Positions 6,586-41,099 of a stretch of DNA of 41,315 bases are shown piece after piece. Position numbers and translations under genes: made by a program. The notes under the pieces are model-generated. The model was not told where the DNA came from. It saw nothing but the letters and a program-made list of their open reading frames with translations, and made no database searches. The DNA comes from a virus: positions 1 through 41,315 of the IMG/VR virus record IMGVR_UViG_3300020020_000012. One strand, given 5' to 3'. Within the stretch, counting starts at the first letter, position 1, and each line of letters begins with the position of its first letter.

Positions 6586-6672
6586 TGGTGGACGCCCGCA
6601 GAATCGAACTGCATAGCCTATCGGAAACTGGTTTACAGCCAGCCGCTGGTCCCAGCCAGTCTTTCGGCGTCC
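6586..6672 (-). tRNA. tRNA-Tyr (anticodon GUA), 87 nt with encoded CCA
   Basis: The acceptor stem is GGACGCC/GGCGTCC, followed by discriminator A and encoded CCA (6588-6586). The anticodon stem is GCTGG/CCAGT with loop CTGTAAA, so the anticodon is GTA (6636-6634 on the minus strand). The variable region is 13 nt, as in bacterial class II tRNA-Tyr, and the T arm is TGCAG-TTCGATT-CTGCG. The D arm is the weak part: a CTGG/CCAG stem is possible but is displaced, and the acceptor-to-anticodon region is 22 nt against 20 in E. coli tRNA-Tyr. It could be functional or slightly degenerate. Confidence 0.85.
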
Positions 6673-11356: not shown

Positions 11357-11958
11357 CGCTGAACGCTCCTGGCGAGGGACACGAGCCACTCGGCGAAGGC
11401 GGGAGGCGTGCGGCGGCGCTGCTGGGCGCTGCAGACCTTGATTCCAGGAGGCACGATTCCTCCGCCGCAGCGCCCGTTTTTCCTGAGCGGGTTCCTGCCG
11501 CCAGAGACCCAATGCGTCACCGTGCCGCCAGTCAGGATGCCGGCCGCGACCACCGAGCGCGCTACCCCGACGATGTACAACCACGTTTTCTTGCGCGCCG
11601 GGTGGCCCCATGCCACTTGCTCGACCTCGACGGTGAAACCGTGCTCGTCGGAGGCGCCTGGCTTCGGGAGAGCGAACGCCTCGAACATCTTCGAGCCCGC
11701 CGGCTGCTCCAGGACTCCGCCTCGCGCGCGGACCGCCGCGATGGCGAACGCGGCGCAGTCAGCGTCCCCGGTGCGTCTCTCGCGGTTCGGGACACGCATG
11801 TGACGTAAGGCGCCCCACGGACCACACGGCGGATGCGCGACCACCGGATGCGGCCCGTCGTAGAGCTTCGCGTCCCGCGTCTCGTCCCAGCAGTCGACGC
11901 CGGGCATCTTCGGGTACGGGCCCCGCGGATCGATGTAGAGGGCGGCCACGGTTTTCAT
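11353..11958 (-). CDS. Phage DNA methylase-like protein with a PPC motif, 201 aa
   Basis: The sequence opens with AALYIDPRGPYPKMPGVDCW, followed by VAHPPCGPWG (PPC at about residues 43-45) and GGVLEQPAGS. This pattern belongs to a phage family usually annotated as DNA methylase or C5-cytosine-methyltransferase-like because of the PPC and E-x-P segments. I see no AdoMet-binding FxGxG motif, and the protein is short for an active C5 methylase, so catalysis is doubtful. ATG 11958 overlaps the integrase stop by ATGA. Confidence 0.6.
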   Translation of the reverse strand: MKTVAALYIDPRGPYPKMPGVDCWDETRDAKLYDGPHPVVAHPPCGPWGALRHMRVPNRERRTGDADCAAFAIAAVRARGGVLEQPAGSKMFEAFALPKPGASDEHGFTVEVEQVAWGHPARKKTWLYIVGVARSVVAAGILTGGTVTHWVSGGRNPLRKNGRCGGGIVPPGIKVCSAQQRRRTPPAFAEWLVSLARSVQR

Positions 11959-13313
11959 CGCCCCCCCGAAACGAGCCGTTCCGACTCGGCCAGAATCTCG
12001 TGGACGCGGGCCTTGGCGAGCGGGCTGCCCTTCCGGAACGAGAGGCGCGTGGCCTCCAGAAGGAGCGCCTTGATCCGCCCATCCCGCGCCGTGGAACGCT
12101 GGTGGAAGTCTTCCACCGCAAGTCCCGAGAATCCTTCAAGGTGCCGGGGATTCGTAAACCGCAGGTCTCGGGTCCGAATCCCGAAGATGGCTCTGGAGTT
12201 AGCTCCGCTCTCGCTCCCCCCGTGGAATTCCACGTCGGAGCGCTTCCCGGCGGCGCGAAGGGTCTCGTTCAGCAGGTGCGCGTAGCGCTCCGTGACCTTC
12301 ACCGAGGAGTGCCCGAGCAGCTGCCGGATCTCCTCGAGTGACCACGCTGGACCCCACCAGCCAGCGAGCAGCGACGTCGCGCAGGTGTGGCGCAGATCGT
12401 ACCAGCGGAACGCGGGATCGACGCCGGCGGCACCGGTCCACTTCTCCCAGCGCGTCGGGTTCGATGAGTCCGCGCGGCGCTTGTTCGTCCGCGGCGACGG
12501 GAAGACGTACTCGCAGCCGCCTTTGCGCGAGTGCTCCGCGGCCCGGAACGCCTCAAGGGCCAGGCCGAAGAGGGGGAGCTTTCGGATCTTGCCGCTCTTC
12601 GTCTTCAGGCCCTTCACCGAGTATCGGACCGTCACCAGGCGGGCGTCCATGTCGACGTCCTCCCAACGGAGGCGCCACTGCTCGGAGTTCCGGAAGCCGA
12701 GACCGAGCATGGCGGCGACGGCCGGCCACTCCTCGGGAGCCACAGAGCGAAGGAGCCGGAGCTGCGCGTCGGGGTCGATGACGCGCCACTTCTCATCCGT
12801 CGAGCCCTCCTCGGCGCGCTTGATCCGAATGTCGCGCGCTGGGTTCGCGGAGATGAGCTCGTCGTCCAGGGCGGAGTGGAGCACCACGCGCATCAGGTTC
12901 AGGGTGTTCTTCCGCGTCTGAATCTCGAGGCCCTTCGCCTTGAGCGACTCGAGCCAGCGCATCAGCATCCCGCGCGTGAGCTGGCGGAGCGGCACGTTGA
13001 CGATGTCATGCGTCTCGACGTAGAGCGCCCAGCGCTGGATGTCCGTGCGGTAGTCGCGCACCGTGACGCGGCGGCGCTTCTCGAAGTCCGGCCAGATGTC
13101 CGCGAGCGTCGAGCCCTTGCCGGCCTTCGCGAACGGCTGCGCGAGCGCGTGCTGCGCCTCGAGCTCCGTGTCGTACGTGCCGGCGCTTCGGTACTTGCCG
13201 GACTTCGGATCGATCTTCCGCGCACGGAAGCGACCAGAGGGAAGCGTTTCGATCGTGCCGTTCACGTGTTCACCCTGTTCGAATGTTGACGACGACATTT
13301 GCGGAGACCGCAT
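11955..13313 (-). CDS. int: Tyrosine-type site-specific integrase, 452 aa
   Basis: The integrase inserts and excises the prophage. A core-binding SAM-like domain (about residues 65-160) is followed by the catalytic domain. Visible residues are R208 in LGLGFRNSEQ, lysines in KGLKTKSGKIRK, box II YDLRHT with R308 (the usual His is Tyr305), H335 in QLLGH and nucleophile Y344 in ERYAHLL. The N-terminal arm-binding part resembles AP2-like domains (GRFRARKIDPKSGKYRSAGT). The protein has an unusual tail of about 100 residues after Y344, and residues 374-388 are encoded by the putative attP core. M6 or V17 are alternative starts. Confidence 0.93.
   Translation of the reverse strand: MRSPQMSSSTFEQGEHVNGTIETLPSGRFRARKIDPKSGKYRSAGTYDTELEAQHALAQPFAKAGKGSTLADIWPDFEKRRRVTVRDYRTDIQRWALYVETHDIVNVPLRQLTRGMLMRWLESLKAKGLEIQTRKNTLNLMRVVLHSALDDELISANPARDIRIKRAEEGSTDEKWRVIDPDAQLRLLRSVAPEEWPAVAAMLGLGFRNSEQWRLRWEDVDMDARLVTVRYSVKGLKTKSGKIRKLPLFGLALEAFRAAEHSRKGGCEYVFPSPRTNKRRADSSNPTRWEKWTGAAGVDPAFRWYDLRHTCATSLLAGWWGPAWSLEEIRQLLGHSSVKVTERYAHLLNETLRAAGKRSDVEFHGGSESGANSRAIFGIRTRDLRFTNPRHLEGFSGLAVEDFHQRSTARDGRIKALLLEATRLSFRKGSPLAKARVHEILAESERLVSGGR
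12151..12192 (+). other. attP: Putative attP core: 3' half of a tRNA-Thr (CGU) inside the integrase gene
   Basis: Read on the plus strand, this segment has a tRNA 3' half: anticodon loop TTCGTAA (12151-12157, anticodon CGT), variable AGGTC, a perfect T stem TCGGG/CCCGA (12168-12172 and 12180-12184) around loop TCCGAAT, then an acceptor strand AGATGGC. No 5' half is present upstream. Such fragments are the usual attP cores of phages that integrate into tRNA genes. It overlaps the integrase frame antisense. Confidence 0.75.
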
Positions 13314-17082: not shown

Positions 17083-17687
17083 TGGCAACCGGGTACACGA
17101 ATCCAGTCAAAGAAGGAAAAGTGACATTCGCGCAGTTCGTCTGGGTCTGCGCGCGAGCGTTCGGCGCACTGATCGAGATCCGCGACGACGGCCTGGACGC
17201 CCCGATCCCGGAGTCGTTCCAGCCGTCGAAGTACTACAAGGAATCCGTCGACCGAGCCGAAGCCGCGCTACGGGCTCTCGAGGAGATGACGGAAACTGAC
17301 ATCGAGCGCGCCGCGGTCGCCGAACGCGAAGCCGCCGCGGATTCGGCCGCCAGAATCGCGGCGGAGCGGCAGGTGAGCGAACGGCGCTATCTGGAAATGC
17401 TCTCACGTGTGGAGGCATGGGAGCCGCCCACGACGGAACACGCCGGGCTGAAAGAGTTCATGATCGCGCAGCTTACAGAATCGATCGAGTGGGATTGCAA
17501 GCCGTGGCGCTTCGAGTCGGCTCCGCCCAAGACGGTCGCGCAGTGGCGCGCCGATGAGTTCGAGCGTCGTCGCGCGGCACTGGCTCGCGCTCGGGAGTCG
17601 CTCGCCGATGAGCTGAAACGCATCAAGTCGCGGAACGACTGGCTCGCGGCACTGCGGAAGTCCGTGCCGTACGAGAGGGCACCATGA
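17082..17687 (+). CDS. Coiled-coil hypothetical protein, 201 aa
   Basis: Long charged helices dominate, with few prolines: RAEAALRALEEMTETDIERA, VAEREAAADSAARIAAERQV and RRAALARARESLADELKRIK. The centre contains EAWEPPTTEHAGLKEFMIAQ, a short linker often seen in phage proteins that end in a helical bundle. ATG 17082 shares one base with the preceding stop (TGATG). The function is unknown. Confidence 0.6.
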   Translation: MATGYTNPVKEGKVTFAQFVWVCARAFGALIEIRDDGLDAPIPESFQPSKYYKESVDRAEAALRALEEMTETDIERAAVAEREAAADSAARIAAERQVSERRYLEMLSRVEAWEPPTTEHAGLKEFMIAQLTESIEWDCKPWRFESAPPKTVAQWRADEFERRRAALARARESLADELKRIKSRNDWLAALRKSVPYERAP

Positions 17688-17884
17688 CGCTGCGCCTTCT
17701 CCTAGTCGCGAAGGCCAGCGAGATGCGCCGCTTTGCGGGCCGTCCGAGCCACGAGATTTACGCCGCCGTTGAGGACCTGGAGCGGCACGCGGACTCGCTT
17801 CGGGAGCAGGCGGGAAGGTTGCGCGCGCTGGCGGACTTGGCGCTCGCGTCGGAGCTCGGGAAGAGCGTCGGAGGTGTGAAGTGA
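17684..17884 (+). CDS. Hypothetical helical protein, 66 aa
   Basis: Two amphipathic helices (KASEMRRFAGRPSHEIYAAV and RHADSLREQAGRLRALADLA) form a possible coiled coil. ATG 17684 overlaps the previous stop by ATGA and the gene overlaps the exonuclease-annealase start. Position just before the recombination gene hints at a link, without sequence support. Confidence 0.55.
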   Translation: MTLRLLLVAKASEMRRFAGRPSHEIYAAVEDLERHADSLREQAGRLRALADLALASELGKSVGGVK

Positions 17885-19443
17885 AGCTGCTACTCGTGGA
17901 CTTTTCGGGTGTCTGGAGAATGCACTGGCACGCATCTGCGGATCAGGAGGTCTCTGCCGCCTACGAGAAAACCGTCTCGCGGGTGCGCGCTCTCGCCGCG
18001 GAGCACGATCGGACGGTCATCTGCTGCGACGCCCCGCCATACCGGCGGAAGGAGCTGTCGCCCGCCTACAAGAGCGATCGCGAGCCGCCGACGCAGGCAA
18101 TGATCGAGCAGGGGCGCCGGACCGTCTACCGCCTGGAGCAGGACGGCCACCTCATCTGGCGCGTGAAGGGATTCGAAGCTGACGACGTCGTGGCTAGCGC
18201 CGTGAAGTGGGCGCGCGACAACGCCACGCAAACGACGATAGCGAGTTCTGACAAAGACCTTATGCAGTGTGTCAGTGACTCGCATCGGATCACGCAGTAC
18301 TCGTTCGCCGCCGACAAGACATTCGCGGAGGCGGACGTCATCGCGAAGTTTGGCGTCCACCCGAAGGACATGGGCGACTGGCTCGCGCTCGTCGGGGACA
18401 AGAGCGACGGAATCGCGGGTGTCCCGGGCGTAGGGCCCAAGACAGCAGCGAAGTGGCTCGCTGAGTGGGGCAGCCTCGCGGGCATCTTCGACAACGCCGA
18501 CCAGCTGGAACCGAAGGGCCTATCGCTGAAGTTCTACGAGGCGCGAGACGCGGTGAGGCTGGCGCGCAAGCTCGTGACGCTGGACGACTCGCTGGAGTTG
18601 CCGTTCGGCGACGTGCTCAAGGCGGCGGAAGTGAAGCCGCTGAACGACGCAGGGGCTTTCCCGGAAGAAAAGGAAGAGGAGCAGGACATGACCGATGACG
18701 ACGCGGCCGACATGATAAGCGGGCCACCGAAGAGCGAACCAAAGAACGATTCTGAGCCACCGCCGCCGCCTCAGGACAAGGCGCCGCCGGCGGTGAAGCT
18801 TGTGGCGACACCAAAGGCAGACACGAAGTCGGCGCCGACTGAGACGGCGCTCGCGACCATGGCTCCGGTGGAGTGGTCGATGCAGCTGGAGCCGCGCGCG
18901 TCCGCGGGCGCGTGGTGGCTTGCCCAGAAGCTGGAAGACTCCAGGATGTATCCGCAGTTCGGGAACGCGGCCGGCATCTACGCGATGCTGCTCCGTGGCC
19001 GCGCGCTCGGGCTGGACGCGACGACCGCGCTCGCTTCCTTCCACAACATCAAGGGCAAGATCGCGATGCATGCCGACCTCATCGAGGCGCTGGTGCTCCG
19101 CAGCGGGAAGGCCGAGTACTTCGACTGCATCGAGACGACTAGCAAGAAAGCCGTCTACGAGACGAAGCGGAAGGGCTCCCGCAACAAGCTGCGCATCGAG
19201 TTCACCATCGAGGACGCCTGGCAAGCGGACTTGGTCACGAAGGACCAGCGCGGGCAGGACGGCTTCCGCGGTGTCGGCGACAAGGGGCCGTCGAACTGGG
19301 ACAAGTACCGCTCGACGATGCTCCGCCACCGCTGCAAAACGCAGCTTGCACGCGCGGTCTACGCTGACGTCGTGCTCGGCCTCTACATGCCGGAAGAGCT
19401 CGGCGGCGAAGGCGTCATCGACGCGGAATACGAGGTAGCATGA
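17881..19443 (+). CDS. Fusion of 5'-3' exonuclease (FEN-like) and RecT-like annealing protein, 520 aa
   Basis: Residues 1-250 form a FEN/PolA-type 5'-3' exonuclease: D7 in LLVDFSG, D50 in CCDAP, YKSDREPP (about 63-70), FEADD (E99, D101, D102), SSDKD (D124, D126), GDKSDGIAGVPGVGPKTAAK (D173, D176 and the helix-3-turn-helix). Residues 252-328 are an acidic, Pro-rich linker. Residues 330-505 match RecT-family single-strand annealing proteins: GRALGLDATTALASFHNIKG, IAMHADLIEALVLRSG, YETKRKGS and SNWDKYRSTMLRHRCKTQLA. Exonuclease and annealase are usually separate genes (lambda Exo/Beta, RecE/RecT). A strong internal ribosome binding site precedes Met270, so a second, shorter product is likely. 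GTGA overlap sets the start. Confidence 0.88.
   Translation: MKLLLVDFSGVWRMHWHASADQEVSAAYEKTVSRVRALAAEHDRTVICCDAPPYRRKELSPAYKSDREPPTQAMIEQGRRTVYRLEQDGHLIWRVKGFEADDVVASAVKWARDNATQTTIASSDKDLMQCVSDSHRITQYSFAADKTFAEADVIAKFGVHPKDMGDWLALVGDKSDGIAGVPGVGPKTAAKWLAEWGSLAGIFDNADQLEPKGLSLKFYEARDAVRLARKLVTLDDSLELPFGDVLKAAEVKPLNDAGAFPEEKEEEQDMTDDDAADMISGPPKSEPKNDSEPPPPPQDKAPPAVKLVATPKADTKSAPTETALATMAPVEWSMQLEPRASAGAWWLAQKLEDSRMYPQFGNAAGIYAMLLRGRALGLDATTALASFHNIKGKIAMHADLIEALVLRSGKAEYFDCIETTSKKAVYETKRKGSRNKLRIEFTIEDAWQADLVTKDQRGQDGFRGVGDKGPSNWDKYRSTMLRHRCKTQLARAVYADVVLGLYMPEELGGEGVIDAEYEVA
18674..18690 (+). promoter_or_regulatory. Internal ribosome binding site and start codon within the fusion gene
   Basis: AGGAAGAGGAG ends 6 bases before an in-frame ATG at 18688-18690, the codon for Met270. 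This is among the strongest Shine-Dalgarno sequences in the genome. Initiation here would give a 251 aa protein with only the linker and the annealing domain. The purine run also encodes the acidic linker (EEKEEEQ), so coding could explain part of it. Confidence 0.6.
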
Positions 19444-19640
19444 GAAAGCGTTGCCTCATCTGTCGCGAGGCGAAGCCGCTCGACGCCTTCCACCTCGACG
19501 CGAGGAATGCCGACGGGAGGCGCCCGGAGTGCGGGCCGTGTCGCAACACGCGGAACCGGCAGCTCGACGGCGGTGCGCAGCGGTACCGTCCGTGGCAGGT
19601 TGCCAACGCCGCGAAGTACTTGCCGGAGGACGGACGATGA
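19440..19640 (+). CDS. Small zinc-finger protein, 66 aa (recombination-endonuclease-VII-like N-terminus)
   Basis: The sequence RKRCLICREAKPLDAFHLDA, then NADGRRPECGPCRNTRNRQ, is a common phage motif with two C-x-x-C pairs and a DGR turn. It is found at the start of endonuclease-VII/HNH-related proteins. The catalytic part is missing here, so the protein is probably a binding module. ATG 19440 overlaps the fusion gene's stop. Confidence 0.65.
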   Translation: MRKRCLICREAKPLDAFHLDARNADGRRPECGPCRNTRNRQLDGGAQRYRPWQVANAAKYLPEDGR

Positions 19641-23672: not shown

Positions 23673-25115
23673 TCAGGTCACGGTGTTGTCGGCCCCAAAT
23701 ATCCACGGAGTGCCGGCGCCGGTTCCAGGGATGACGTTGATGATTTGCCCCGACTGAATCCAGAGTGACGCGCTGTTCCCTACCGCCGGAGAGATGCGCG
23801 TCGTCGTGTTACCCGACCAGAGCGCTGTCCCTTGGGCCTGCGCGAGAGCAACGCGGGCAATCGACACCGATCCGTCGGCCGCGTTGTCGTCCATGACGTT
23901 CCGGCTCCAGATGTTCGCGTCGGAATCGGCCGAGATGGGCCCAACGGCGTAGGAGTGAAGGACCAGGAAGGCCTCCCCTGCGTTGCCGGTGAGGGTGTTC
24001 TGGTCGAAGACAGCGTGCTTGTGGCGCGTCTCCAGGTCGTAGCCGACGCCGTCCGGGGTCTTTGCTCCACCTAGCCCATTGGGGTCTGGGCGCGTCGTGC
24101 CGCTGAAGGTGCAGCCGCTGACAAGGTATTGGTGCATGTGGCTGCTGAAAAAGCCCGCGGAGCCGTGCGGATACCCGAGCGAGCACTGGTTCGTAAACGA
24201 GCAGCTTGTCATCGAGACACGGTAGGCGGCCGCGAGCTCCGCGTGCTGCCACCAGGAGCTGGTTGACGTGATGTTGTTGAAGCGGTGCTGTTGCCCGGAA
24301 CCCACGTAGAAAGGCAGGTCGGTGTCTTCGAGAGAGCAGTCCTCGATGCGCACGTAGTTCACGCCGAGCACGGTGATGCCGGTTGCGAAGCCCCGGTTGT
24401 AGCCGGCGAGGTCGATGGGAGGGTCAGCGGGAAGCCCAGCCAACGCGATATCCGTCATCGCTACGTCGTGAACCCAAAGGCCATCCACGGCGCCCAAGTA
24501 GAGCTCGTTCGGGTTCTCTGTTCCGATCTTGCTGTAGGTCAGATTCGCGAGCGAGATGCCGGCGCGGGTGTACCCGGTGAACTCCAGGTCGCTGATTTCC
24601 CACCCGGCCATCGAAGGTCTGGCGAAGTAGATGCCGCTCTCGACAGTCCCGCCGCCGTCGAGGACCGGGTCAGCGCCGGCGCCGTACTTTCCGATCCGAA
24701 TCCACTTCGTCGCGGCCGACGCATCTGCCGCTGTCCATGCCGCGTCCTGCGCAGTCGGCAGGGCCATCTGAGCTGCCCAGATATCTCCCCACGCAGCGGC
24801 TTGCGGCGCGGTCTGCCCCGCGGCTACGGCGTTCGCAACGAGGGTAGCGTGGTCTGCGCCTGCGACGATGGCCGCCTTCTCGGCGGCGTGAGATGTCGCG
24901 AACGTGGACTCGTACGTCGCCTTGTCGAAGAGGCCGTAGCCGTGCGCGATGAACTGCCCTGCGTGCGTCTCGCCTGCCTTGAGCAGCAGCGAGTCACCGG
25001 CAACGTACGTGTCCTGCGATGCGCGCGAAAGCGTGGCCCACGCGGTCGCCTCGGTTGTGCCGGCGTTCGCGTCGTTCCCGCCTGACGGGTCCACGTAGTA
25101 CGTGGCTGGGATCAA
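23673..25115 (-). CDS. Tailspike-like right-handed beta-helix protein, 480 aa
   Basis: The start ATYYVDPSGGNDANAGTTEA is the classic beginning of secreted or phage beta-helix proteins. The rest shows the repeating short-strand pattern with asparagines and glycines (WEISDLEFTGYTRAGISLAN, VRIEDCSLEDTDLPFYVGSG, CTFSGTTRPDPNG). Such proteins bind or cleave surface polysaccharide. Catalytic residues cannot be assigned by eye. An alanine-rich insert (about residues 78-130) interrupts the helix. It sits at the end of the structural operon, where host-specificity proteins usually are. Confidence 0.75.
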   Translation of the reverse strand: MIPATYYVDPSGGNDANAGTTEATAWATLSRASQDTYVAGDSLLLKAGETHAGQFIAHGYGLFDKATYESTFATSHAAEKAAIVAGADHATLVANAVAAGQTAPQAAAWGDIWAAQMALPTAQDAAWTAADASAATKWIRIGKYGAGADPVLDGGGTVESGIYFARPSMAGWEISDLEFTGYTRAGISLANLTYSKIGTENPNELYLGAVDGLWVHDVAMTDIALAGLPADPPIDLAGYNRGFATGITVLGVNYVRIEDCSLEDTDLPFYVGSGQQHRFNNITSTSSWWQHAELAAAYRVSMTSCSFTNQCSLGYPHGSAGFFSSHMHQYLVSGCTFSGTTRPDPNGLGGAKTPDGVGYDLETRHKHAVFDQNTLTGNAGEAFLVLHSYAVGPISADSDANIWSRNVMDDNAADGSVSIARVALAQAQGTALWSGNTTTRISPAVGNSASLWIQSGQIINVIPGTGAGTPWIFGADNTVT

Positions 25116-25119
25116 GTGC

Positions 25120-25680
25120 TCAAGGGCTTTTGCAGCCGAGCGTTACGCCCACCAAACTTCCTGCCGTGGAGGCCGTTGAGCCGCTCTGAACGACGCGGAT
25201 GGACAAGGAGTCTCCCTGCGCGATGGCGATGCCGGCGTGTGTACCTTGGGCCGAGGGTGTGCCCGGGGACAGCGTGACCGTGAGCGCAGACGGCGTCCCG
25301 CCGACTTCGAGCGTGTACGTGATGCTGTCGGTGGCCTGAGTTGCGTTTGCGTACGTCGCGGTAAGCGTGACCGCTGTCATGGCCATGGGCGCAGTGATGT
25401 ACAAAGCCCCAGATGCAGCCGTCGCGACGGCTGCACTCCCGGCTCGCGGCATCCAGCGAGTGGATGTGGTCCCTGGGTTGCCGTTGCTGAAGAACGCACC
25501 CGCGGGGAAAACCTTGGCGTTGACCGAGGCATCGATCAGCGTCTGAATGGCCGCCTGACTCGCCGGAAGCGCGTCGATTTTCGTCTTGTCGGCGCCGGTC
25601 ATGAATCCGGCGGCGCCGGCGGCGACAACGTTCGCGTGGCCTCCGGTGATGCTCGTTCCGCTGTGAAGTACGTCAGCCAT
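25120..25680 (-). CDS. Tail fibre/tip-like protein, 186 aa
   Basis: The N-terminus GHANVVAAGAAGFMTGADKT (about residues 14-33) is a motif common in phage tail-fibre shafts, in which AGFM-x-x-ADK-x-KID repeats. The C-terminal two thirds are Thr/Ser/Ala-rich beta structure (MTAVTLTATYANATQATDSI, TLEVGGTPSALTVTL), like a jelly-roll tip. It overlaps the preceding short gene by 8 bases. A host-binding role is likely but inferred. Confidence 0.65.
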   Translation of the reverse strand: MADVLHSGTSITGGHANVVAAGAAGFMTGADKTKIDALPASQAAIQTLIDASVNAKVFPAGAFFSNGNPGTTSTRWMPRAGSAAVATAASGALYITAPMAMTAVTLTATYANATQATDSITYTLEVGGTPSALTVTLSPGTPSAQGTHAGIAIAQGDSLSIRVVQSGSTASTAGSLVGVTLGCKSP

Positions 25681-25837
25681 TGGTCAACTGGTCTCCGCTC
25701 GGGTCGGTGAGAATGTCTACGCCGCCGGTGTTCAAAAGGTGGTCCCCTGTGGGAGGTGGCGGCGGCGTGATAGCTCCGCCTTTGGCGACACCGAAGCGCG
25801 TGCCTCGATTGCGCCCAGCGACTTTCCGGCGGCTCAC
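25673..25837 (-). CDS. Short structural-region protein, 54 aa
   Basis: This begins with GTG 25837 in a GTGA overlap and ends inside the next gene's start. It has a basic N-terminus (SRRKVAGRNRGTRFGVAKG), a run of five prolines (residues 25-29) and a polar tail (TGGVDILTDPSGDQLTNG). The tight overlaps on both sides indicate that it is translated. The function is unknown; a small tail adaptor is possible. Confidence 0.55.
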   Translation of the reverse strand: MSRRKVAGRNRGTRFGVAKGGAITPPPPPTGDHLLNTGGVDILTDPSGDQLTNG

Positions 25838-26229
25838 GGCACCCTCGGAATCCCGAGTCCGCCCAGTGGCGACTGCGAGAGAGAGACGCGAAGGAATCCG
25901 GCGCTCGCTGCCTTCACGACGAGGTATCGCCCCGCGGGACGCTCGTGCTCCGGAGTGCCAGCGATGAGCGCGGAGCACATGCCGGACGTGAGGCCCGCGT
26001 TGCCCGTCGTCGCCTCGTTGACCGCGGTGAGGCCGTCGTTACTCCAAAAATAATAGGTCGTCTGGTCGGCGAGCAGCTTGCAGTAGTTGCCGATCCAGCG
26101 GTCGCCAAGGGTGGCCGCGAACCGTGCGTTCATGTCGATGCTCTGCGAGCTCGTCGTGGTGGCGATGACGGTGACGAGCCCCTGCTGAGGGCCTCTGACG
26201 TCCGCTGCCGAATCCTGTACTCCGCTCAT
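25834..26229 (-). CDS. Hypothetical structural protein, 131 aa
   Basis: This is a beta-rich protein: GLVTVIATTTSSQSIDMNAR, RWIGNYCKLLADQTTYYFWS, then GRYLVVKAASAGFLRVSLSQ. ATG 26229 is preceded by AAAGGA. It sits between the ejection and tail-tip genes and is probably a minor virion or receptor-binding component. No family is recognised. Confidence 0.6.
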   Translation of the reverse strand: MSGVQDSAADVRGPQQGLVTVIATTTSSQSIDMNARFAATLGDRWIGNYCKLLADQTTYYFWSNDGLTAVNEATTGNAGLTSGMCSALIAGTPEHERPAGRYLVVKAASAGFLRVSLSQSPLGGLGIPRVP

Positions 26230-26241
26230 GGTCTGGTCCTT

Positions 26242-29076
26242 TCAGAGGTTGATCTTGTCCAGCAGCGACTGGTGGTGCTGCGCGACGTTGGGTGCTCCGC
26301 CCGGCTTCTGCGGCCGCTGCGGCGCCTGCTTCTGCGCCATGGCCGCTTGCTCGACGACGCGCATGTGCGCCGGCTTCGCGCTGGGCTCGATGGCGCCGCC
26401 GCCACCGAAGAGCAGGTCAAGCTGGATGCGCTTCTGGTACTTGAGCGGCGTCTTGGCTTCCGAGGCGGCCACGACGTAGTCGAAGACCGCCGTCCGGATG
26501 TCGTTGTACAGCTCAGGGTAGACGGCCTGGACGGCCTCGATGCGCTGCGGCGTCAGCATGCCGCGCTGAAGCTCGTCGAGCGCCGAGAGCGGGTCCGTGG
26601 CGCCGGCGACGTACTCGTTGAACCGGTCCTGCGACGCCTTCGAGATGGGCGCCTTGTAAGCCCCGTCGAGCGCGTTCGGCGGGGGAGCCGGCGGGAGCTT
26701 GCTCGCGAGGAACTGGATCGCCCGCATCGGGACGGCGGCGAGCGCCATGCGCGTCTGGGGAAGGTGCCGCGCGGAGTCGCCGAGGAATCGGTCGACCTCG
26801 GCGGCCATCGCGACGGGGTTCGCCGCGAGCTCCGCCACGCGCTCGCGGTGCTTCGGGGCCTCGGCCATCGCGGGGGAAGCGCCGCCGCCGGTCACGGAAG
26901 CCACCGCGGCGCGGCGTCCCGCGGACGGCAGTGCCTTCACTGCCGATCCGGCAGCCTTGCCGACGGCGGAGTGCGGGATGTGGCCGAAGAAGCCTTCGAG
27001 CGCCTTGGACGTGCGCTTGACGGTGTTCCCGGCGAGAGCCCTGATGCGTGCCGCCTGCATGGCTGCCTGCATCGGCTTCGTGGCCAGGCTGACGCCAGGA
27101 ACGGCGCCGAGGATGGGGCCCAGGAGCGACGCGGCGCCCGCGTTCTCGGCCTCCATCCACGCCTTCCCCTGGTTCGCGAGCTTGACCGTGGAATCGGCCT
27201 GCTCGAGCGCCTTCACGATCTTGGCGTGAGCCTGACGAACGCCTTCGATCTTCGCCTGATGCTTCGTGCCAAGGTCGAGATTGTTCGCGATCTCGTCCAC
27301 TAGATTGCGCTCCGCGTCGATGTTTTCCTTGATGTACCGCTCCGCGAGCTCCGCCCGACGAGTCCCGAGGCCACCAACGAACTGCTCGACCTTGCCCGGG
27401 TCGACCTCCCATCGCGCTCGCCCGTAGTCGTCTCCGGTACGAGTCATCAGCGACCGGTCCGCCATCTCCTTCGAGTCGAGCCAGCGCTTCGTGGCGGCGT
27501 TGTACTTCGCCTGCGCAGTGCCCTGGCGGTCGAACAGTGAAGCGTCTTCGAGATGGAAGCGGACGTCTTCCGCGGCCTCCTTCGTCAGGTCCGCGAAGAG
27601 CTGGAGCTGGTCGCGCTTCCCGAGGTCCATGGTCTGGCCAGCGGCGCCACCCTCAGCCTTCTTCCCAAGGCGCTGGAGTTGCCGCTTGGTGGCGTCGAGC
27701 GCCATGTAGCTGTCTTCCGCGCCGAGCGCCCCAGACATGACGTCGTCGAGCGCGTCGTCGATGTACTTGCGGGCGCCCTTCGCCCACTTGTTGTCACCGA
27801 ACGTCTCCAGGTCATCGAGCGCGCCGAGCTTCGATCGGATGGTCGCCGCTTGCTCGCGAGCTCCAGCGAGAGCGGCTTGCTTGTCCGCGTTCGCCATCAG
27901 GCGCACCACGTTTTCGCGCTTCAGCGGCGCTTCAAAAATCTCGCTGAATACCTCACTAGAGTCGCCGCGCATGGAGCGCACCGCGTCTGTGATCTCGCCG
28001 GTCGCGCCGTGCACGATCTCGTCGCGGCGCAGGATCTTATCCATGCCGCTCAGCGCCTCGGCGTCGCCCATTGCGATCTTGTGCGGCCCGTACTTCTCGA
28101 CGGCTTCTCGCGGGACACCTGACAGCGTGGACGCCGTGCCCTCGTAGGCGCGCCCCACGCGGCCGCTCGTCGCGGCGTCTGACACTTCTCTGATGGCCTT
28201 CCCGAGGCCAGGGGCCGGCTCTACACCAAGCGCGCCACGCGCCACTTCCTGGAGCGCCTCGGCTTCCGCGTTCCGGCCTGCGCCAAGCGCAGCCTTCGCC
28301 GCCGATCGCGCCTCGAGTTTCCCAAGGACACCGCCACCGACGCCGCCCAGTATGCCGCCGGCTGCCGCGTTCATCCCGACGTTCGCCCAGAAGCGCTCGG
28401 CAGTGGCCGGCACGTTCTCGATGTAGGCGTCTTCGTTGGCCTGCGCGGCGCCTTGCAGGATGCCCTCGCCTGCCCCGGTGAGCCCGAGCACGACAGCCTT
28501 CGAGCCGACCGTGCCCAGGCGAGCGGCGGTGGCCGCCTGTGCCAGCTGGCCGCCCTTGGTGAGCAGCCCGGCGCCGCCGGTGAGGGCCAGCGCGCCGAGT
28601 TGGCCGCCGATGTTGCCGACCGCGGAAGCCGTTGGGTTCGCGAGCGCCGTGGCCCGCATCGATTCGCCGGCCTCGCGCCCGGACTGCTCGACGCTCTTGT
28701 CGGTCAGCAGGCCGCCACCGAGTGCCGCCGTCGACTCGAGGACGTTCCGGCCGCTCGTTGCGCCCTCGAAGGTCTGCCCGACGCCGGTGCCGCCCGTGGC
28801 GCGGTCGATGGCTTGCGCCGCCTTGTCGCCGAGGTTGATGCCGGTGACGGCCTCGACGGCGCGGTTCGCGAGACGGACGGGAGCCGTGGCGCCTTCGATT
28901 GCGCCAGCTGCCGCGCCTTGGGCAAGCGCCGCCACCATGCCGCCGCCGGTACGCTGGGCCGACTCCTCTGGAGTCTCGATGTGCCAGCCGTCAGCAAGCG
29001 CCGCGCGCAGGTTCGCCTTCGGGACGTGTCCCGTGCTGCCGTCGCTTCGGACGATGCGAACCTGCTCGTCTGCCAT
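26242..29076 (-). CDS. Large internal virion/DNA-ejection protein, 944 aa
   Basis: The N-terminus RIVRSDGSTGHVPKANLRAA is typical of phage injection proteins that begin with a short soluble domain. Residues about 48-300 are Ala/Gly-rich with hydrophobic helices (TASAVGNIGGQLGALALTGG, ILGGVGGGVLGKLEARSAAK), suggesting insertion in the host envelope. The remaining 600 residues are helical and charged. Together with the next two proteins it would form the ejectosome that extends the short tail, as in T7 gp14-16 or P22 gp7/16/20. I see no transglycosylase motif. Confidence 0.65.
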   Translation of the reverse strand: MADEQVRIVRSDGSTGHVPKANLRAALADGWHIETPEESAQRTGGGMVAALAQGAAAGAIEGATAPVRLANRAVEAVTGINLGDKAAQAIDRATGGTGVGQTFEGATSGRNVLESTAALGGGLLTDKSVEQSGREAGESMRATALANPTASAVGNIGGQLGALALTGGAGLLTKGGQLAQAATAARLGTVGSKAVVLGLTGAGEGILQGAAQANEDAYIENVPATAERFWANVGMNAAAGGILGGVGGGVLGKLEARSAAKAALGAGRNAEAEALQEVARGALGVEPAPGLGKAIREVSDAATSGRVGRAYEGTASTLSGVPREAVEKYGPHKIAMGDAEALSGMDKILRRDEIVHGATGEITDAVRSMRGDSSEVFSEIFEAPLKRENVVRLMANADKQAALAGAREQAATIRSKLGALDDLETFGDNKWAKGARKYIDDALDDVMSGALGAEDSYMALDATKRQLQRLGKKAEGGAAGQTMDLGKRDQLQLFADLTKEAAEDVRFHLEDASLFDRQGTAQAKYNAATKRWLDSKEMADRSLMTRTGDDYGRARWEVDPGKVEQFVGGLGTRRAELAERYIKENIDAERNLVDEIANNLDLGTKHQAKIEGVRQAHAKIVKALEQADSTVKLANQGKAWMEAENAGAASLLGPILGAVPGVSLATKPMQAAMQAARIRALAGNTVKRTSKALEGFFGHIPHSAVGKAAGSAVKALPSAGRRAAVASVTGGGASPAMAEAPKHRERVAELAANPVAMAAEVDRFLGDSARHLPQTRMALAAVPMRAIQFLASKLPPAPPPNALDGAYKAPISKASQDRFNEYVAGATDPLSALDELQRGMLTPQRIEAVQAVYPELYNDIRTAVFDYVVAASEAKTPLKYQKRIQLDLLFGGGGAIEPSAKPAHMRVVEQAAMAQKQAPQRPQKPGGAPNVAQHHQSLLDKINL

Positions 29077-30986
29077 CAGCGACTCGCCAGCGGGACCGGC
29101 GGCTCCTCTGCGCTAGGGTTGCTGATCGCGCCATCGACCGTGATGCCGGCGCCAGAAGTGGTCGGCTTGACAGGCGTCTTCGTGGACGGGTCTTTGAACA
29201 GCAGCTTGTACGCGCTGTCCTCGCGGAACTGGGCGTGCTGCTGCGCCTCACGCATGCCGGCGAGTACGGTGGTCTTTTTGGTCGGGTCCAGAGAGATGTC
29301 ATTCCCTCCGGCTCCGGTGAACGGATCCACGAGGACGTAGTCGCCGTCTGTGAGGTTCTTGAGTACCTCGAAGTCGCGGACCAGAACGGTGTTGTTCTTG
29401 ACCAGCTGCTTGTACCGAGCGGCGGCGGCCGGATCGATGCTGCTGCCTAGCTGCCCCAGAATCTTGCGCTGCTCATCCACGTTCTTCTTGAAGCGATCCG
29501 TCGCGTCGATCTGCATCTGGATGTTCTGCGTGATGCGGTCGTCGCCGACGTACGCCTTCTGCCCAGTCGGGAGAATGACCTGACGCTTGAGCTCGTACTC
29601 CTCCTGCTGGCGCGCGGCGTTTTGCTCCTCGGCCCCAGGCTTGGCGCGCCCGAGCGCCTTGTTGTTGTAGTCGAGCACCGCCTCGGCCGCGCCAACCTCC
29701 GCCTTGATCTCCTGGGGCGTCTTCCGGATGCTGCCGCCCGCGCTGGGCGCCTGGTACTTCGCGTCCAGCTTCTGGATGGTCTTGCCCTGCACGTTCTCTT
29801 CCAGCTGCTGGGCGTGCTCGAGGTACTTCTTGTCCGCCGCGATGGCCATCTGCATGGCCGCCTGCTGCGCGTTCGCGTCGCCCATGATGGCCGCCTGTTT
29901 CTGCGCCATCGTCGCCGCCGTGCGTGTCTGAACGGCCTTGAGCGCGGTCTCCGCCGTGTCCATGTCGCCGAAGACGCGCTGGTACTGCGCGAGCGCATTG
30001 TTGGCCTTGATGCCCTTGCGCTGCACCTCGGCCCGCTGCGCCGCGACGTCTTGCGCGATGCGGTTGTTGATGACGTCCATTCCGCTCGGCCCGCGCCCGA
30101 GAATCGCGGAGCCCATCGAGGTAAGCGCGGCGGAGATGAGCGTGAGCATGCCGCCGGCCGCGTCCTTCCCGCTGCCGTTGCCCCAGATGCTGCCGCCGTC
30201 TACCTTCGCCTCGCTGGCATCCTGGCTCAGTTGGTCGAGATTCGTGCGCGCCGCCTCTACATCGCGCCGGATGATGTCCTTCTTGATCTGTGCGTTGAGC
30301 GCCTCCGTTTCGAGCGCGGACCGCTCCGCCTCGGCGGCCTCCAGGGCCGACTTATACGCCGCGTGCTGCGCGCCATACCCCTGGGCGATGGCGCTGTGCT
30401 CCGCCTCGTGCGTGTTCTCGAAACCCTTGATGAGTCCGGGGGAGTACTCCTTCGCGCCCTCTGTCGTCTGCGACTGCGCGGTCGGCATGTACCCGCCTGG
30501 ACGGGCCGCCGTGCGCTTGTACATGCTGATCTCGGTCGGCTGCGGGAACAGCGGGTCGCCGTTCGAACCCGTTGGGTAGCCGGTGCTCGAGACGTACTGC
30601 GGCGGCGCGGCGCCGCCTGGCTGCGGACCAGCGACCGGAGCCGGCGGGGGGACATCGTTCGGCGAAGGCGCGGTAGTCGGGCCCATGTCGCGCGGGTCGC
30701 TCACTGGCGCGGGAGCGGCGTGCGCTTGCGGCGCTTCGCGCGGCGGCGGCTGCTCCGAAAAGCCGCGGATGGCGTCAGCGGTCCCGGCACTCGCGGGCCC
30801 GAAGCCGAGTCCTGTCGAGCCGAGCCCCGCCGTGCGCATGTCAGCCGGCCGCGTCCGGTCGATGTCCTGCGCGATGCGGTCCGCCTCTGGCCCGTGGAAG
30901 AACAGCTGCCGCCCGTCCGGGTGAGCGAACGTGTAGCCGCCGTTCGGCTCGGCGCGGTAGTCGGTGAATCCGGGGTCAAAGGCCAT
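29076..30986 (-). CDS. Internal virion/DNA-ejection protein, 636 aa
   Basis: A Pro/Ala-rich N-terminus (about residues 70-150) precedes a long helical region (EHSAIAQGYGAQHAAYKSAL, IIRRDVEAARTNLDQLSQDA), a small hydrophobic patch (GMLTLISAALTSMGSAILGR, about residues 286-305) and more coiled coil up to about residue 540. The last 90 residues are beta-rich. ATG 30986 starts 3 bases after the previous stop. The cluster position and composition suggest an ejection protein. Confidence 0.6.
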   Translation of the reverse strand: MAFDPGFTDYRAEPNGGYTFAHPDGRQLFFHGPEADRIAQDIDRTRPADMRTAGLGSTGLGFGPASAGTADAIRGFSEQPPPREAPQAHAAPAPVSDPRDMGPTTAPSPNDVPPPAPVAGPQPGGAAPPQYVSSTGYPTGSNGDPLFPQPTEISMYKRTAARPGGYMPTAQSQTTEGAKEYSPGLIKGFENTHEAEHSAIAQGYGAQHAAYKSALEAAEAERSALETEALNAQIKKDIIRRDVEAARTNLDQLSQDASEAKVDGGSIWGNGSGKDAAGGMLTLISAALTSMGSAILGRGPSGMDVINNRIAQDVAAQRAEVQRKGIKANNALAQYQRVFGDMDTAETALKAVQTRTAATMAQKQAAIMGDANAQQAAMQMAIAADKKYLEHAQQLEENVQGKTIQKLDAKYQAPSAGGSIRKTPQEIKAEVGAAEAVLDYNNKALGRAKPGAEEQNAARQQEEYELKRQVILPTGQKAYVGDDRITQNIQMQIDATDRFKKNVDEQRKILGQLGSSIDPAAAARYKQLVKNNTVLVRDFEVLKNLTDGDYVLVDPFTGAGGNDISLDPTKKTTVLAGMREAQQHAQFREDSAYKLLFKDPSTKTPVKPTTSGAGITVDGAISNPSAEEPPVPLASR

Positions 30987-30989
30987 GGT

Positions 30990-32567
30990 TCACTTCCGCA
31001 TTCCGGCGGTGATGCCTTGCCCGAGAGCGTTCCCGCCCGCGCCTCCGGCTGCCGCTCCGCCCGGGCCACCCATGAGCCCGCCGGCGACTGCTCCCGCCGC
31101 GGTGAACGCGCCGCCGATGAGGTTGTTCGCGAACTGCGAGTCGCGCGCCGCCTTCGCGTCGATGCCGGCTTTGTCGATGCCGTAGTGAGTGAGGTAGTTC
31201 CCGGTGCGCGCGGAGTCGTAGGCGATCTTCGAGCCCATGTCCGTCTGCGCGATCTGCTGGCCCATGCCGAGGTACTGCCGAGCGGCGTCGTCGCGCGTGA
31301 GCTCGAGTTGCGCCCCGCGAAGCGCCATCTCGCCGGCCTGCCCAGCCATCTGGCCCGCCTGCCCGTACATCTGGCCCTGTCCGCCGAGCACGTTCGCCTG
31401 CTGACCGAGCGCGTCGACCTGCGAGCCCATCGCTTGGCCGTACGCCTGCCCGCCCGCGCCGAGCGCTTGCATCCGCTGCGTCCTGTAGGCGAGGTCTTCG
31501 TTCGCGCGCTGCTGCCCGAGCTGCGAGACGAGGTTGCCTTGGATGGCCGCGTTGCCCATGGCCGCGTTGCGCATCCCGAGGCCGGCATTCGCGCCGCGCG
31601 CGCCGGCCGCGAGGGCCGCGTTGCCCTGGAGCGCCTGCCCGGCCTGCGTGCGCATCGCCATCTCGGAAGCGCTCATGCCTTGCGGCTGCTGGCCCATCGC
31701 GTAGAGCGCGTTCGCGGCGTTCATCTGGCCCGCGTAGCCGGCGCCGGTGGCCGCTCCGCCGATCTGGTTGGCTACGCCACCGAACTGCCGCCCGACGCCA
31801 GCGATCTGACCGGCGGCCCCGGCCTGGTACATGCCGGCCATGTCGATGCCCGGCTGATAGCGGCTCGGCTGCCCCATCGCGGCGGCGGCGGCGTCCATTT
31901 GCCCGACGCGGTTCCCGACCCACTCCGCGTTGCCGCCGAGCTGGTACGCTGCCGAGTTAGCGTGTGGGTTCCAGCCGCCGGTCTCGTAGAGCTTGCGGTT
32001 CGCGACGGCCGCCTCGTAGCCGGCCGGGTCGTCCTTGAACTGCTCGGCGAGGTCTAGGAGACCGCGGCCTTGGTCGCTCGCGGTGAACCCGCGCCCGAAG
32101 GTGTTCCGAAGGCCGCCCTGCACGCCGTTCTTCTGGAGGTCCTCCATGTGCGCGGGGTTGTATCCACTGGGACTTTTCCAGCCGTAGACGGGGTTGGTCG
32201 TGGTCCCCGTCGCGTTGATCGTTGGCGGCGCCGACTGCGGGCCGTACGGGTTCGTTGGTCCCGACGGCGCCATCGGCGGCGGGGCTTGCGGAGCCGGAGC
32301 CGGCGGCTGCCATCCCGTGGGGGCGATTGCGGCGCTGGGCGCGTTCGGCCCGAAGACGCCCTGCCACGTTGCGTTCGGGTCGGCAGGAGCGGAGAGCGCC
32401 TGCCTGGACGTGCCGACGCCTCCCGGTGAGCCCAGTGGCGTCCCGCCGACAGCAGCGGCACCGAGCATGCCGCCTAGCTGGTTCGCGATGCCTGGCTGTG
32501 GCTGGGGAGCGCCGTACGGCCCTGCACCCATCCCGTTTCGGCCGCCTTGCTGGGGGGGTAGCGCCAT
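30990..32567 (-). CDS. Gly/Ala/Gln-rich ejection-type protein, 525 aa
   Basis: The composition is striking: Gly, Ala, Gln and Met dominate, with repeating GQ/GM segments in the C-terminal half (GQAYGQAMGSQVDALGQQAN, VLGGQGQMYGQAGQMAGQAG). It ends in a hydrophobic glycine-zipper-like helix (GAFTAAGAVAGGLMGGPGGA). This could insert in the host membrane. ATG 32567 shares one base with the preceding TAA (TAATG). A role as the first ejection protein is plausible but inferred from context. Confidence 0.55.
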   Translation of the reverse strand: MALPPQQGGRNGMGAGPYGAPQPQPGIANQLGGMLGAAAVGGTPLGSPGGVGTSRQALSAPADPNATWQGVFGPNAPSAAIAPTGWQPPAPAPQAPPPMAPSGPTNPYGPQSAPPTINATGTTTNPVYGWKSPSGYNPAHMEDLQKNGVQGGLRNTFGRGFTASDQGRGLLDLAEQFKDDPAGYEAAVANRKLYETGGWNPHANSAAYQLGGNAEWVGNRVGQMDAAAAAMGQPSRYQPGIDMAGMYQAGAAGQIAGVGRQFGGVANQIGGAATGAGYAGQMNAANALYAMGQQPQGMSASEMAMRTQAGQALQGNAALAAGARGANAGLGMRNAAMGNAAIQGNLVSQLGQQRANEDLAYRTQRMQALGAGGQAYGQAMGSQVDALGQQANVLGGQGQMYGQAGQMAGQAGEMALRGAQLELTRDDAARQYLGMGQQIAQTDMGSKIAYDSARTGNYLTHYGIDKAGIDAKAARDSQFANNLIGGAFTAAGAVAGGLMGGPGGAAAGGAGGNALGQGITAGMRK

Positions 32568-35500
32568 TATCGTCTCTCCGCGTTACTGAGCCTGGTTGTG
32601 CCACCGAGCTGTGCCAACTCTAGCGCAAATCCGTGCCAAAGTACCCCGGCAGCTGACTCCACGCCGGAGATATCGATGTCCGAAAACCGCAGCCGGAGCG
32701 CCGAAAGCTCGGTCTTCTTTACCGACGCCTCCCAGTGCCGGATCACGACTGTGCCAGCTGCGCCAGTAAACGTGGATTTGAGCCACTCGGCGGCAATGTA
32801 GGTGGCTCCGCTGTCGAAGGAGGCTTCGAAGCGGAGGTTCGACGGGGCGGCCAGCGTTGCGAGGAGCACGATGGCGTCCACCTGGCCGTAGCCGAGGATC
32901 CCAAATGGGCGCGCGTCGCCGGTCTCGATGACGAGCGGGATTTCGTAGTCCGCGGCGGCCGCGTCGATGTCCCGGTAGAGCAGCCCGGTTTGCGTCGAGA
33001 CGATGCCCGCGCCGCTCGCGCCGATGGCCGTCACGTCGTTCCAGAGCCCGACGCACTCGAGCTCCGCGGGGAGGTACGTCGCGACGGTGAACGCCCCGAT
33101 GCCCGTCTCATCCGGGACGTCGTAGTGGTAGTAGACGATGCGCGTGTCCGTCGGCGAGTCGTCCGCGTCGGCGATGAGCAGCTCCACGCGACTCTTGCTC
33201 GTGCGGTCGACGGCGCCCTTCACGACGGGGCAGGCCGCGAGCTCGGCGGAGACACGGCGCCCGATGGGTTGCGGCGTCTGCTCGCCTCGGCGCATCCAGT
33301 AGATGCCCGTGCCGAACTGGTCGCGCCCGGTGAAGAACAGGCCGTCCTGCGTCGCGACGGCTCCCCGCGGGTCGGTGCAGTTGGCCGTCGCGGTGAGGAA
33401 GACGGGCTCCGGGAAGGCGCCTTGCCCGGTGTCTGTCGGCCCTTCGCCGTAGGAGGCGATCCACACGCCGCGGTCGCAGAGCGCGTAGAGCTTGCCGTCC
33501 TGCGGCACGAGCGCGTTCACGCGGCCTGCGCCAGGAACCGGGATCGTGAACTCCGCGGCGGGCGTCGGGATGGTGCCCGAGCTCATGACGCGCGTGCACC
33601 AGAGCGTGTCGGGCCGCTCGGCCATGACGCCCCATATGCGGCCGGCGAAGTTCGCGACGATGACGGAGGCCGGGCCGATGGTGCCCGCGAGGACACCCGC
33701 GTCCGTGTAGAGGGCTTCGCCGAGCGCCGAGTCTGCGGCGGTGTCCGTCCACGTAACCGGCGAGTGGCTGGCCACGTTGTTCGCGACGCTCGGGGGGTAC
33801 GCGGTCCGCATGGCCCGCTTGAACGGCGGCAGGCCACCCTGGTCCGTGCGGTAGGCGACGATCTTGACCGGCGAGCTCTGGTCGTAGTGGCTCGAAAGGT
33901 TGCGGTCCCGGTGCTGCTTCCGGGTCGCGTGGAGCACCGGCAGAGACCACGCCACGGACGCGGTGTCGCCCGAGTAGCCGCCGGCGCTGAGGTCGATGCT
34001 CACGGGAAGCGACGGAGCGGACTGGTGGCGGTTGCCGTACGAGTCGTTCCACTCGTAGACGAAGCAGTACTGGTACGTTCCCTGCTCGATGAGGCCGCCG
34101 GTCGTGCTCGGCGTGGCGTCCACAAGCGCGCCGCCAGGGAAGCTGTAGAAGCCCATCTCCACGACGCGGGAGCCGTCGAACAGGAGCGGGGTGCCGCCGG
34201 CGAGCACCGAGCTTTCGAGGGCCGGCGCGTCCAAGTAGCGGTCGTGCCCCCGCGCGCGGAACCGGTAGGTGACGACGTTCTGCCCGCCGTTCACGCCTTC
34301 GCCGGTCAGGTTCTTGACGACCGAGATGAAGAAGTGGTCCGCCGTGCTCCCGGCCGCGACAGCGGCGATGTACGGGGACGTTGCCGCGGTGACCAGCGGA
34401 GCCACGCCGGAGGCGACGGACAGCACGGGATAGGGGAGGTTCGCGCCGTCGCGTCCCCAGTCGGCGAGGAGCAAGTGCGTCTGCCCCGTCGCCGAGAAGC
34501 GCTGCAAAGCGAAGACACGGCCGCCGTCGAGCGGGTCCCGGTAGAAGCGCGACCCGATGATGTAGTTGGCGAATGGCGCCCACCCGTCGCCGCTCGTGAG
34601 CAGGTCGGTGTAGCGCTTCGACCAGACGTGACCCAGCGGGTTCTGCGGGTCGGTCGCCGTGACGCGGCTCGTGGCGAAGAGCCAGTCGAGCGTGGACACG
34701 AGCTCCACGGAGACCTGCTTCGTGGCCCCGCCGAAGGTCGCCGCGTCGTTCACGCTGGCGATAGCGCTCTGCACGAGGCTCTGGCTCAGGGTGACGAGCT
34801 CCGTCGTGCTGGTCGTGCTGTTCGCGATGGCCGCAATCCCGCGGGTGCCGTTCGTGCCGCTGGCGATGCAGAGCGAGGTCGGAGCCACGAGGTTCGGGGA
34901 TGCCGCCGTGCCCCAGTCGTACGGGCCTGACGCCGCCAACAGGACGCCGCCCGAGGACGTGTACGTGCGGATCAGGACGCTCGACGTGGAGTTGTAGAGC
35001 AGCGCGACGTTCGTGCCGCTCCCGGATACCGTCACGTCGAAGAGCGGCTGAATGCTCTGCGCGTCCGTGACCAGCGTGGTGGGCGAGCCGACCGGGCCGA
35101 GCGTCGCCGCCGACAGGTCGTAGGCCTGATAGACGATCGTGGTCGCCGAGGTCTTCGCGTAGAAGACGTAGACGTAGTTCCCGATGGCCAGCGCCCTGTG
35201 TGGAGCCAGTAGGCCCTCCACCGAGAGCTCGTCGATGAGCTGTGAGCTCCACGCGCGCGAGCCGGTCGAGATGCTGACCACGCTCGCGAAGAGCATGTAG
35301 GCGCTCGAGATGGTGTCGCGCTGGATCCACGATACCCAGAGCCAGTCACCGACCACCGCGCACTGAGCCGACGAGATGGTGCCGCCCGTGTCCGCGCCGG
35401 CCGTGAAGACCTGCTGGAGCGACGCCGCGACGTTGCACCGGATGCCGGCGGCGCCCGCCTCGGCGAGGTCGTCGGTCGCCTCGAACTGCGTGTAGATGTT

Positions 35501-39733: not shown

Positions 39734-39757
39734 GTGCGGTCCTTTGGACCGCGAATG

Positions 39758-40840: not shown

Positions 40841-41082
40841 GACCCGGCCTCGTGATGCTGGAGAATCGAGAACAGGCCGCGGATCTCCGCCACCTTGCCG
40901 CCGGCAAGGTCCCCAACCTCACGGGTCTTTCGGCAGAAGACGGCGCCCCGATGATCGGTGCCACGCTTCTGGGCGCGCACCTCCCAGTCGTCGCCGTACT
41001 CCGTGACCTCGAGGAATTCCGCTCCCGGGAACTCGATCTCTGCGGCCTTCGCCAGTGTCTCCAGTTGCTCTTTGGTGATCAT
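40837..41082 (-). CDS. Hypothetical protein between portal and scaffold, 81 aa
   Basis: This is a small alpha/beta protein (EQLETLAKAAEIEFPGAEFL, EVRAQKRGTDHRGAVFCRKT). ATG 41082 has GGGGAG about 9 bases upstream. GTG 41103, overlapping the portal stop as GTGA, would add seven residues (to 88 aa) but has a poorer Shine-Dalgarno. The function is unknown; proteins of this size in this place are often head-assembly accessories. Confidence 0.6.
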   Translation of the reverse strand: MITKEQLETLAKAAEIEFPGAEFLEVTEYGDDWEVRAQKRGTDHRGAVFCRKTREVGDLAGGKVAEIRGLFSILQHHEAGS

Positions 41083-41099
41083 GCTGCTCGTCTCCCCAG

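Follow-up and report, generated by a model that had tools for sequence, protein, structure and literature searches.

The window, that is, the whole stretch of 41,315 nucleotides of IMG/VR virus record IMGVR_UViG_3300020020_000012 that was analysed, contains at positions 17881–19443 of the + strand a single open frame of 520 aa with a GTG start and a TGA stop. An initial annotation, made from the sequence alone, had described one gene joining a FEN-type 5′-3′ exonuclease to a RecT-like annealing protein, and both domains were indeed found within this frame by profile searches. The features of the locus are listed below.

17684–17884, + strand: upstream 66-aa ORF, overlapping the start of the fusion gene by 4 nt (position)
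17870–17875, + strand: Shine-Dalgarno-like GGAGGT, 5 nt upstream of the fusion-gene GTG (read from the sequence)
17881–19443, + strand: FEN-RecT fusion gene (domain profiles; at least 66 distinct fused homologues)
17884–18354, + strand: 5′-3′ exonuclease N-terminal (resolvase-like) domain, residues 2–158 (PF02739, E 1.6e-22; invariant ligands; fold)
18355–18606, + strand: 5′-3′ exonuclease C-terminal H3TH domain, residues 159–242, with D173 and D176 (PF01367, E 3.6e-24)
18670–18858, + strand: disordered acidic, Pro/Ala-rich linker, residues 264–326 (pLDDT mostly below 50)
18677–18690, + strand: candidate internal start, with AGGAG at 18677–18681, a 6-nt spacer and in-frame ATG at 18688–18690 (Met270)
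18886–19410, + strand: RecT/Red-beta-type annealing domain, residues ~336–510 (PHROG 4171; Red-beta 7ujl by profile and fold)
19440–19640, + strand: downstream 66-aa ORF, overlapping the stop of the fusion gene by 4 nt (PHROG 1035, E 5e-10, residues 2–44)

By its position, the upstream ORF belongs to the same operon as the fusion gene. The downstream ORF, which may encode a truncated resolvase, resembles phage endonuclease VII families in their N-terminal zinc-binding part only.

Elsewhere in the window, an SU10-like portal gene (2–1936) runs off the left end, and head genes are located at the right end (38501–41297) on the same strand as the portal gene. The 41-kb record, although classed as linear, probably represents a circularly permuted genome that is nearly complete. 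A tyrosine integrase gene at 11955–13313 points to a temperate phage; a tRNA-Tyr gene at 6586–6672 might mark the attachment site. Several ORFs of the structural region (23676–37191, − strand), coding for 480–1070 aa, have no PHROG match save for a short hydrolase match in one of them. With these large unmatched structural ORFs, the virus belongs to a poorly known phage group.

Domains of the fusion protein

Search with Pfam models placed 5_3_exonuc_N (PF02739) at residues 2–158 (E 1.6e-22, 80.4 bits compared to a cut-off of 34.3) and 5_3_exonuc (PF01367) at residues 159–242 (E 3.6e-24, 85.5 bits compared to a cut-off of 40), while a PHROGs search matched the protein to PHROG 107 (exonuclease). 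The acidic residues expected of the nuclease are present at D7, D50, E99, D101, D102, D124, D126, D173 and D176, the resolvase-like domain holding the metal ligands up to D126; D50 is a further ligand that had been missed in the initial annotation. Residues R56, Y63, K64 and R67 of the FEN domain likewise match. Across 66 fused relatives (see below) these four residues and the acidic ligands are invariant, the sole gap, in the D7 column, being due to one truncated sequence. The predicted model of the nuclease superimposes on E. coli ExoIX with Z 28.7 (242 residues, 1.8 Å) and on T5 FEN with Z 25; plastid exonuclease 1, mycobacterial FEN and Taq are also matched, and ExoIX and T5 FEN with bound flap or overhang DNA are among the nearest folds. 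Pfam models YqaJ, DUF3799 and PDDEXK_1 had no match anywhere in the window. Profiles and predicted model thus agree with the earlier assignment: the nuclease has a FEN fold and not the PD-(D/E)XK fold of lambda Exo, RecE and YqaJ. On this evidence the first half of the protein is a FEN/PolA-type 5′-3′ exonuclease, for which exonuclease and flap endonuclease activities are predicted.

When the C-terminal part was searched in isolation, it matched RecT-like PHROG 4171 (E 1.9e-15) and RecT-like PHROG 561 (E 5e-8). The Pfam RecT model (PF03837) gave 19.6 bits with the window protein, below the 24-bit cut-off, and 36 bits, above the cut-off, with fused relatives L028 and L040. A profile built from 74 relatives matched Red-beta (7ujl) with E 7e-5. 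For fold comparison the RecT domain was also modelled alone, apart from the nuclease. Red-beta 7ujl was the only significant PDB match of this model (Foldseek E 1e-5, Z 8.5); Listeria RecT (7ub2) followed with Z 6.7, and RAD52 and Sak appeared lower in the list, at Z of about 5, amid unrelated folds. The C-terminal half, which had been placed at residues 330–505 in the initial annotation and now spans residues ~336–510, is by profile and predicted fold a RecT/Red-beta-type annealing domain that is predicted to form oligomers and to anneal single-stranded DNA.

The full-length protein was modelled with AlphaFold2 using 62 fused sequences. The pLDDT was mostly above 90 in the two domains, and the acidic Pro-rich linker noted earlier was disordered at residues 264–326. 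The third-position GC content is 0.84 in the nuclease, 0.75 in the linker and 0.91 in the RecT part; the high value in the linker indicates that the linker is coding. Linkers of the 66 fused relatives are also rich in Pro, Ala and acidic residues and range from 48 to 196 aa, with a median of 81.

Fused relatives and their evolution

Relatives were collected from IMG/VR by alignment-based scans, the first with a nuclease alignment and the second with the RecT parts of the fusions obtained in the first. The nuclease scan returned 65 loci, 11 of which had both domains in one ORF. The RecT scan returned 346 relatives; among the best 80 of these, 69 were fused with the same domain order, and the remaining loci comprised fragments at contig ends, RecTs without a fused partner and a single copy of a fused gene interrupted by a frameshift. 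After removal of duplicates at least 66 distinct fused proteins were obtained. Since these proteins are found on independent metagenome contigs, the fusion in the window is not an assembly join; it is genuine. Frame errors do occur, as is evident from locus L169, in which one inserted base close to the FEN-domain end splits the gene while the near-identical L168 is fused, but an assembly or sequencing error that merged two adjacent genes is rejected given 66 distinct fused proteins from many independent assemblies, nuclease identities that fall to 25% and a coding composition unbroken across the linker.

Outside IMG/VR, a tblastn search of phage records (50,697) and plasmid records (72,556) for matches spanning at least 80% of the fusion protein gave none. 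A scan of genome contigs revealed Opitutae nucleases only and no fusion, and 289 genomes of the phylum of Opitutae contained seven stand-alone RecTs and no fusion. A full-length structural match was, however, obtained with UniProt entry A0A6J5MUB0 from an uncultured Caudovirales phage (462 aa, 510 columns, 35% identity, E 1.3e-41). This protein apparently has the same architecture; it is named only "PIN_53EXO domain containing protein", and a search for a functional description of it returned none. The initial annotation knew of no standard precedent for the pairing. This holds for the literature that was searched, a scope outside which the classification of Iyer et al. 2002 lies, where no description of a FEN-RecT fusion was found; it does not hold for sequence databases, given the UniProt entry. 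Each half of the protein is of a known family, and what is new is their natural union in one chain.

Whole records of the window virus and 37 other fusion viruses (38 in total), together with those of six viruses encoding stand-alone relatives of this RecT, were searched for other nucleases. Every fusion virus (38/38) contains exactly one FEN N-domain, the fused copy. YqaJ, DUF3799 and over-cut-off PDDEXK_1 matches, the three Pfam models used, were found in 0/38 of these records, which may be fragments; one of the 38 has a sub-threshold PDDEXK_1 match. Conversely, no FEN was detected in the six stand-alone-RecT viruses, three of which encode a YqaJ or PDDEXK_1 nuclease. The hypergeometric probability of such a distribution of RecE-type nucleases (3/6 versus 0/38) is 0.0015. 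This supports, but does not prove, a replacement of the RecE-type nuclease by the fused FEN, since some records could lack part of the genome and since half of the controls, too, gave no match to the three models.

In a maximum-likelihood tree, 62 fused RecT domains form one clade (support 97/91) that adjoins stand-alone RecTs of other environmental viruses. The fused FENs also form one clade (100/96), which contains, in addition, only the FENs of L034 and L038. Pairwise FEN and RecT distances across the fusions correlate with a coefficient of 0.69, the maximum in permutations being 0.22. Most likely, as judged from these sequence comparisons, the FEN-RecT fusion arose once and was then kept, and FENs were joined to other annealers on separate occasions. 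At L034:3899–6130, on the same contig as L173 and L181, a 744-aa ORF combines a FEN of the fused clade with an AAA_24/Sak4-like annealing ATPase (PHROG 124, E 4e-20); used as a query, its Sak4-like C-terminal part matched only its own contig, so the FEN-Sak4 fusion is known from one record. At L038:3360–4726 an Erf annealing gene overlaps a stand-alone FEN gene by 4 nt, which by sequence is a two-gene form with a third class of annealer. At L220:3665–5716 and L234:3899–5707, the fusion partner of a more distant FEN belongs to PHROG 3290, annotated "single strand annealing protein" (E 3e-49). Fusion is not obligatory, since at L215:2232–4675 and L225:2519–4741 the genes for RecT and FEN are close to each other but distinct, on either side of a small ORF. 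The repeated joining of FENs to unrelated annealers (RecT, Sak4-like and PHROG 3290, with Erf adjacent) suggests a general rule among uncultured phages, one concealed by annotation that considers only the nuclease domain.

Several minor observations were made at these loci. The L220 and L234 viruses each also encode an SSB, and a 353–355-aa ORF lies upstream of the RecT/FEN pair in L215 and L225. The FEN genes of L045, L051, L052, L230 and L237 have a C-terminal extension of 150–190 aa, with no further PHROG or Pfam match in those scanned. A small protein of 134–236 aa is encoded downstream of the fusion in 29 of the 66 loci (for example, L101:6519–6968 and L139:6486–6890). The few members searched matched no PHROGs or Pfam family, and this conserved protein, a possible functional partner of the fusion, is absent from the window.

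Proposed function and comparison with known exonuclease–annealase pairs

Lambda-type systems resect 5′ strands and load an annealase onto the 3′ tail. In lambda Red (Exo and Beta) and Rac RecE/RecT, known as SynExo pairs, a 5′-3′ exonuclease is likewise dedicated to an annealer of the RecT/Red-beta superfamily, and in the fusion, too, the dedicated exonuclease and annealase are encoded together, here in one ORF and co-inherited. In the SynExo pairs a PD-(D/E)XK nuclease makes specific contact with a second protein, the annealer, whereas the fusion is one chain with a FEN-fold nuclease and, unlike in the lambda arrangement, provides one nuclease per annealase protomer. Actinophages Kukla, Wizard and P1312, found by tblastn, encode a RecT of the same subfamily as the fusion, but as a separate gene beside a RecE-like or exodeoxyribonuclease VIII gene. 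The stand-alone FENs and PolA domains (T5 D15, ExoIX/Xni, the Taq N-domain) share fold and metal ligands with the fusion and, unlike it, are not joined to an annealing domain. T7 gp6 is FEN-related, and its partner, gp2.5, is an OB-fold SSB, not RecT-like. This 5′-3′ exonuclease and annealer, both needed for double-strand-break patching in vitro (PMC3276506), are a functional precedent for the fusion, albeit as separate proteins.

We propose that the fusion protein, from a tailed phage, is a single-strand-annealing recombinase contained in one polypeptide, a version of the exonuclease–annealase pair, and assign to this reading a probability of roughly three in four. It is based on architecture, an intact active site, conservation, co-inheritance and the fact that RecE-type nucleases were not detected; from these we infer both activities, the direction of digestion, loading in cis and the biological role. 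Its retention in dozens of further environmental phages makes it probable that the fusion really is a machine for DNA recombination in one piece. Starting from a double-strand end, a gap or a nick, the N-terminal FEN domain would digest the 5′ strand. The RecT/Red-beta-type domain would take the exposed 3′ single strand in cis, across the flexible acidic linker, and pair it with a complementary strand, and the FEN domain may also trim 5′ flaps that remain after annealing. Such pairing could serve to circularise the genome, to form concatemers, to restart replication or to carry out repair. The fusion would stand in for both the separate RecE/lambda-Exo nuclease and the protein–protein contact of lambda and Rac, the covalent link solving the problems of partner choice and loading. 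Red-beta binds Exo with an affinity of only ~8 μM (PMC7496540), and the lambda and Rac pairs cannot swap partners (PMC5052646), which suggests why a fusion could be useful. Weighing against the reading are the separate RecT and FEN genes of L215 and L225 and the ratio of one nuclease to each annealase protomer, which departs from lambda.

The main rival reading places nuclease action after annealing: host nucleases (RecBCD, RecJ, AddAB) would make the single strands, RecT would pair them and the tethered FEN would cut the flaps. FEN-family enzymes also act as flap endonucleases, so 5′ resection by the fusion is not certain. The flap- or overhang-bound ExoIX and T5 FEN among the nearest folds are in line with flap cutting, and for T7 gp6 a cleavage of the displaced strand once annealing has taken place has been proposed (PMC3276506). 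Yet no RecE-type nuclease was detected in the fusion viruses, compared to three of the six stand-alone-RecT controls with one, as if resection had passed to the FEN. We consider flap trimming an unlikely substitute for resection, with which it may coexist.

Still less probable is a role in replication, with the FEN removing Okazaki primers like the PolA domain and RecT mainly holding single strands or targeting the nuclease to the fork. The FEN is the primer-removal domain of PolA, and among the 38 fusion viruses an SSB was found in only three and a PolA polymerase in none. Against this, PolA or a solo FEN is generally available from the host (PMC12926913), and the pairing of the same FEN clade with Sak4-like and Erf proteins, and of other FENs with PHROG 3290, points to recombination.

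If the recombinase reading is correct, the fusion bears on an old question for lambda Red, the hand-over of the 3′ strand from exonuclease to annealase: in a natural single chain with another nuclease fold the hand-over becomes directly testable, and separation-of-function and linker mutants are simple to make. For bacteria in which two-gene systems fail, the fusion is in addition a ready-made candidate for recombineering with one gene.

Finally, we considered whether the fused gene makes, in addition to the full FEN-RecT chain, a RecT-only chain translated from an internal site directly behind the nuclease, a suggestion from sequence that we put forward tentatively and think somewhat doubtful. 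A Met located 12–31 residues past the nuclease is present in 34 of 45 dereplicated fused genes, compared to 11.2 expected (p 1.5e-12), in a linker that otherwise does not align, and in 24 of the 34 it is preceded by a Shine-Dalgarno-like match of at least 4. About half of early-linker ATGs have such a match, compared to 10–13% in both domains. The FEN region has fewer ATGs of the Shine-Dalgarno type than expected (22 versus 33.8), and the linker shows no such deficit (41 versus 39.4 expected). Codon-level selection for an internal Shine-Dalgarno sequence was not supported, as a codon shuffle explains the observed rate from the amino acids alone. With no excess in codon choice beyond the amino acids, a conserved peptide motif rather than a start codon is an alternative explanation of the Met. 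An internal start has a precedent in T7 gene 4, whose single frame yields both a long protein and a short one. If the RecT-only chain is made, many annealase protomers could assemble with few nuclease-bearing ones.
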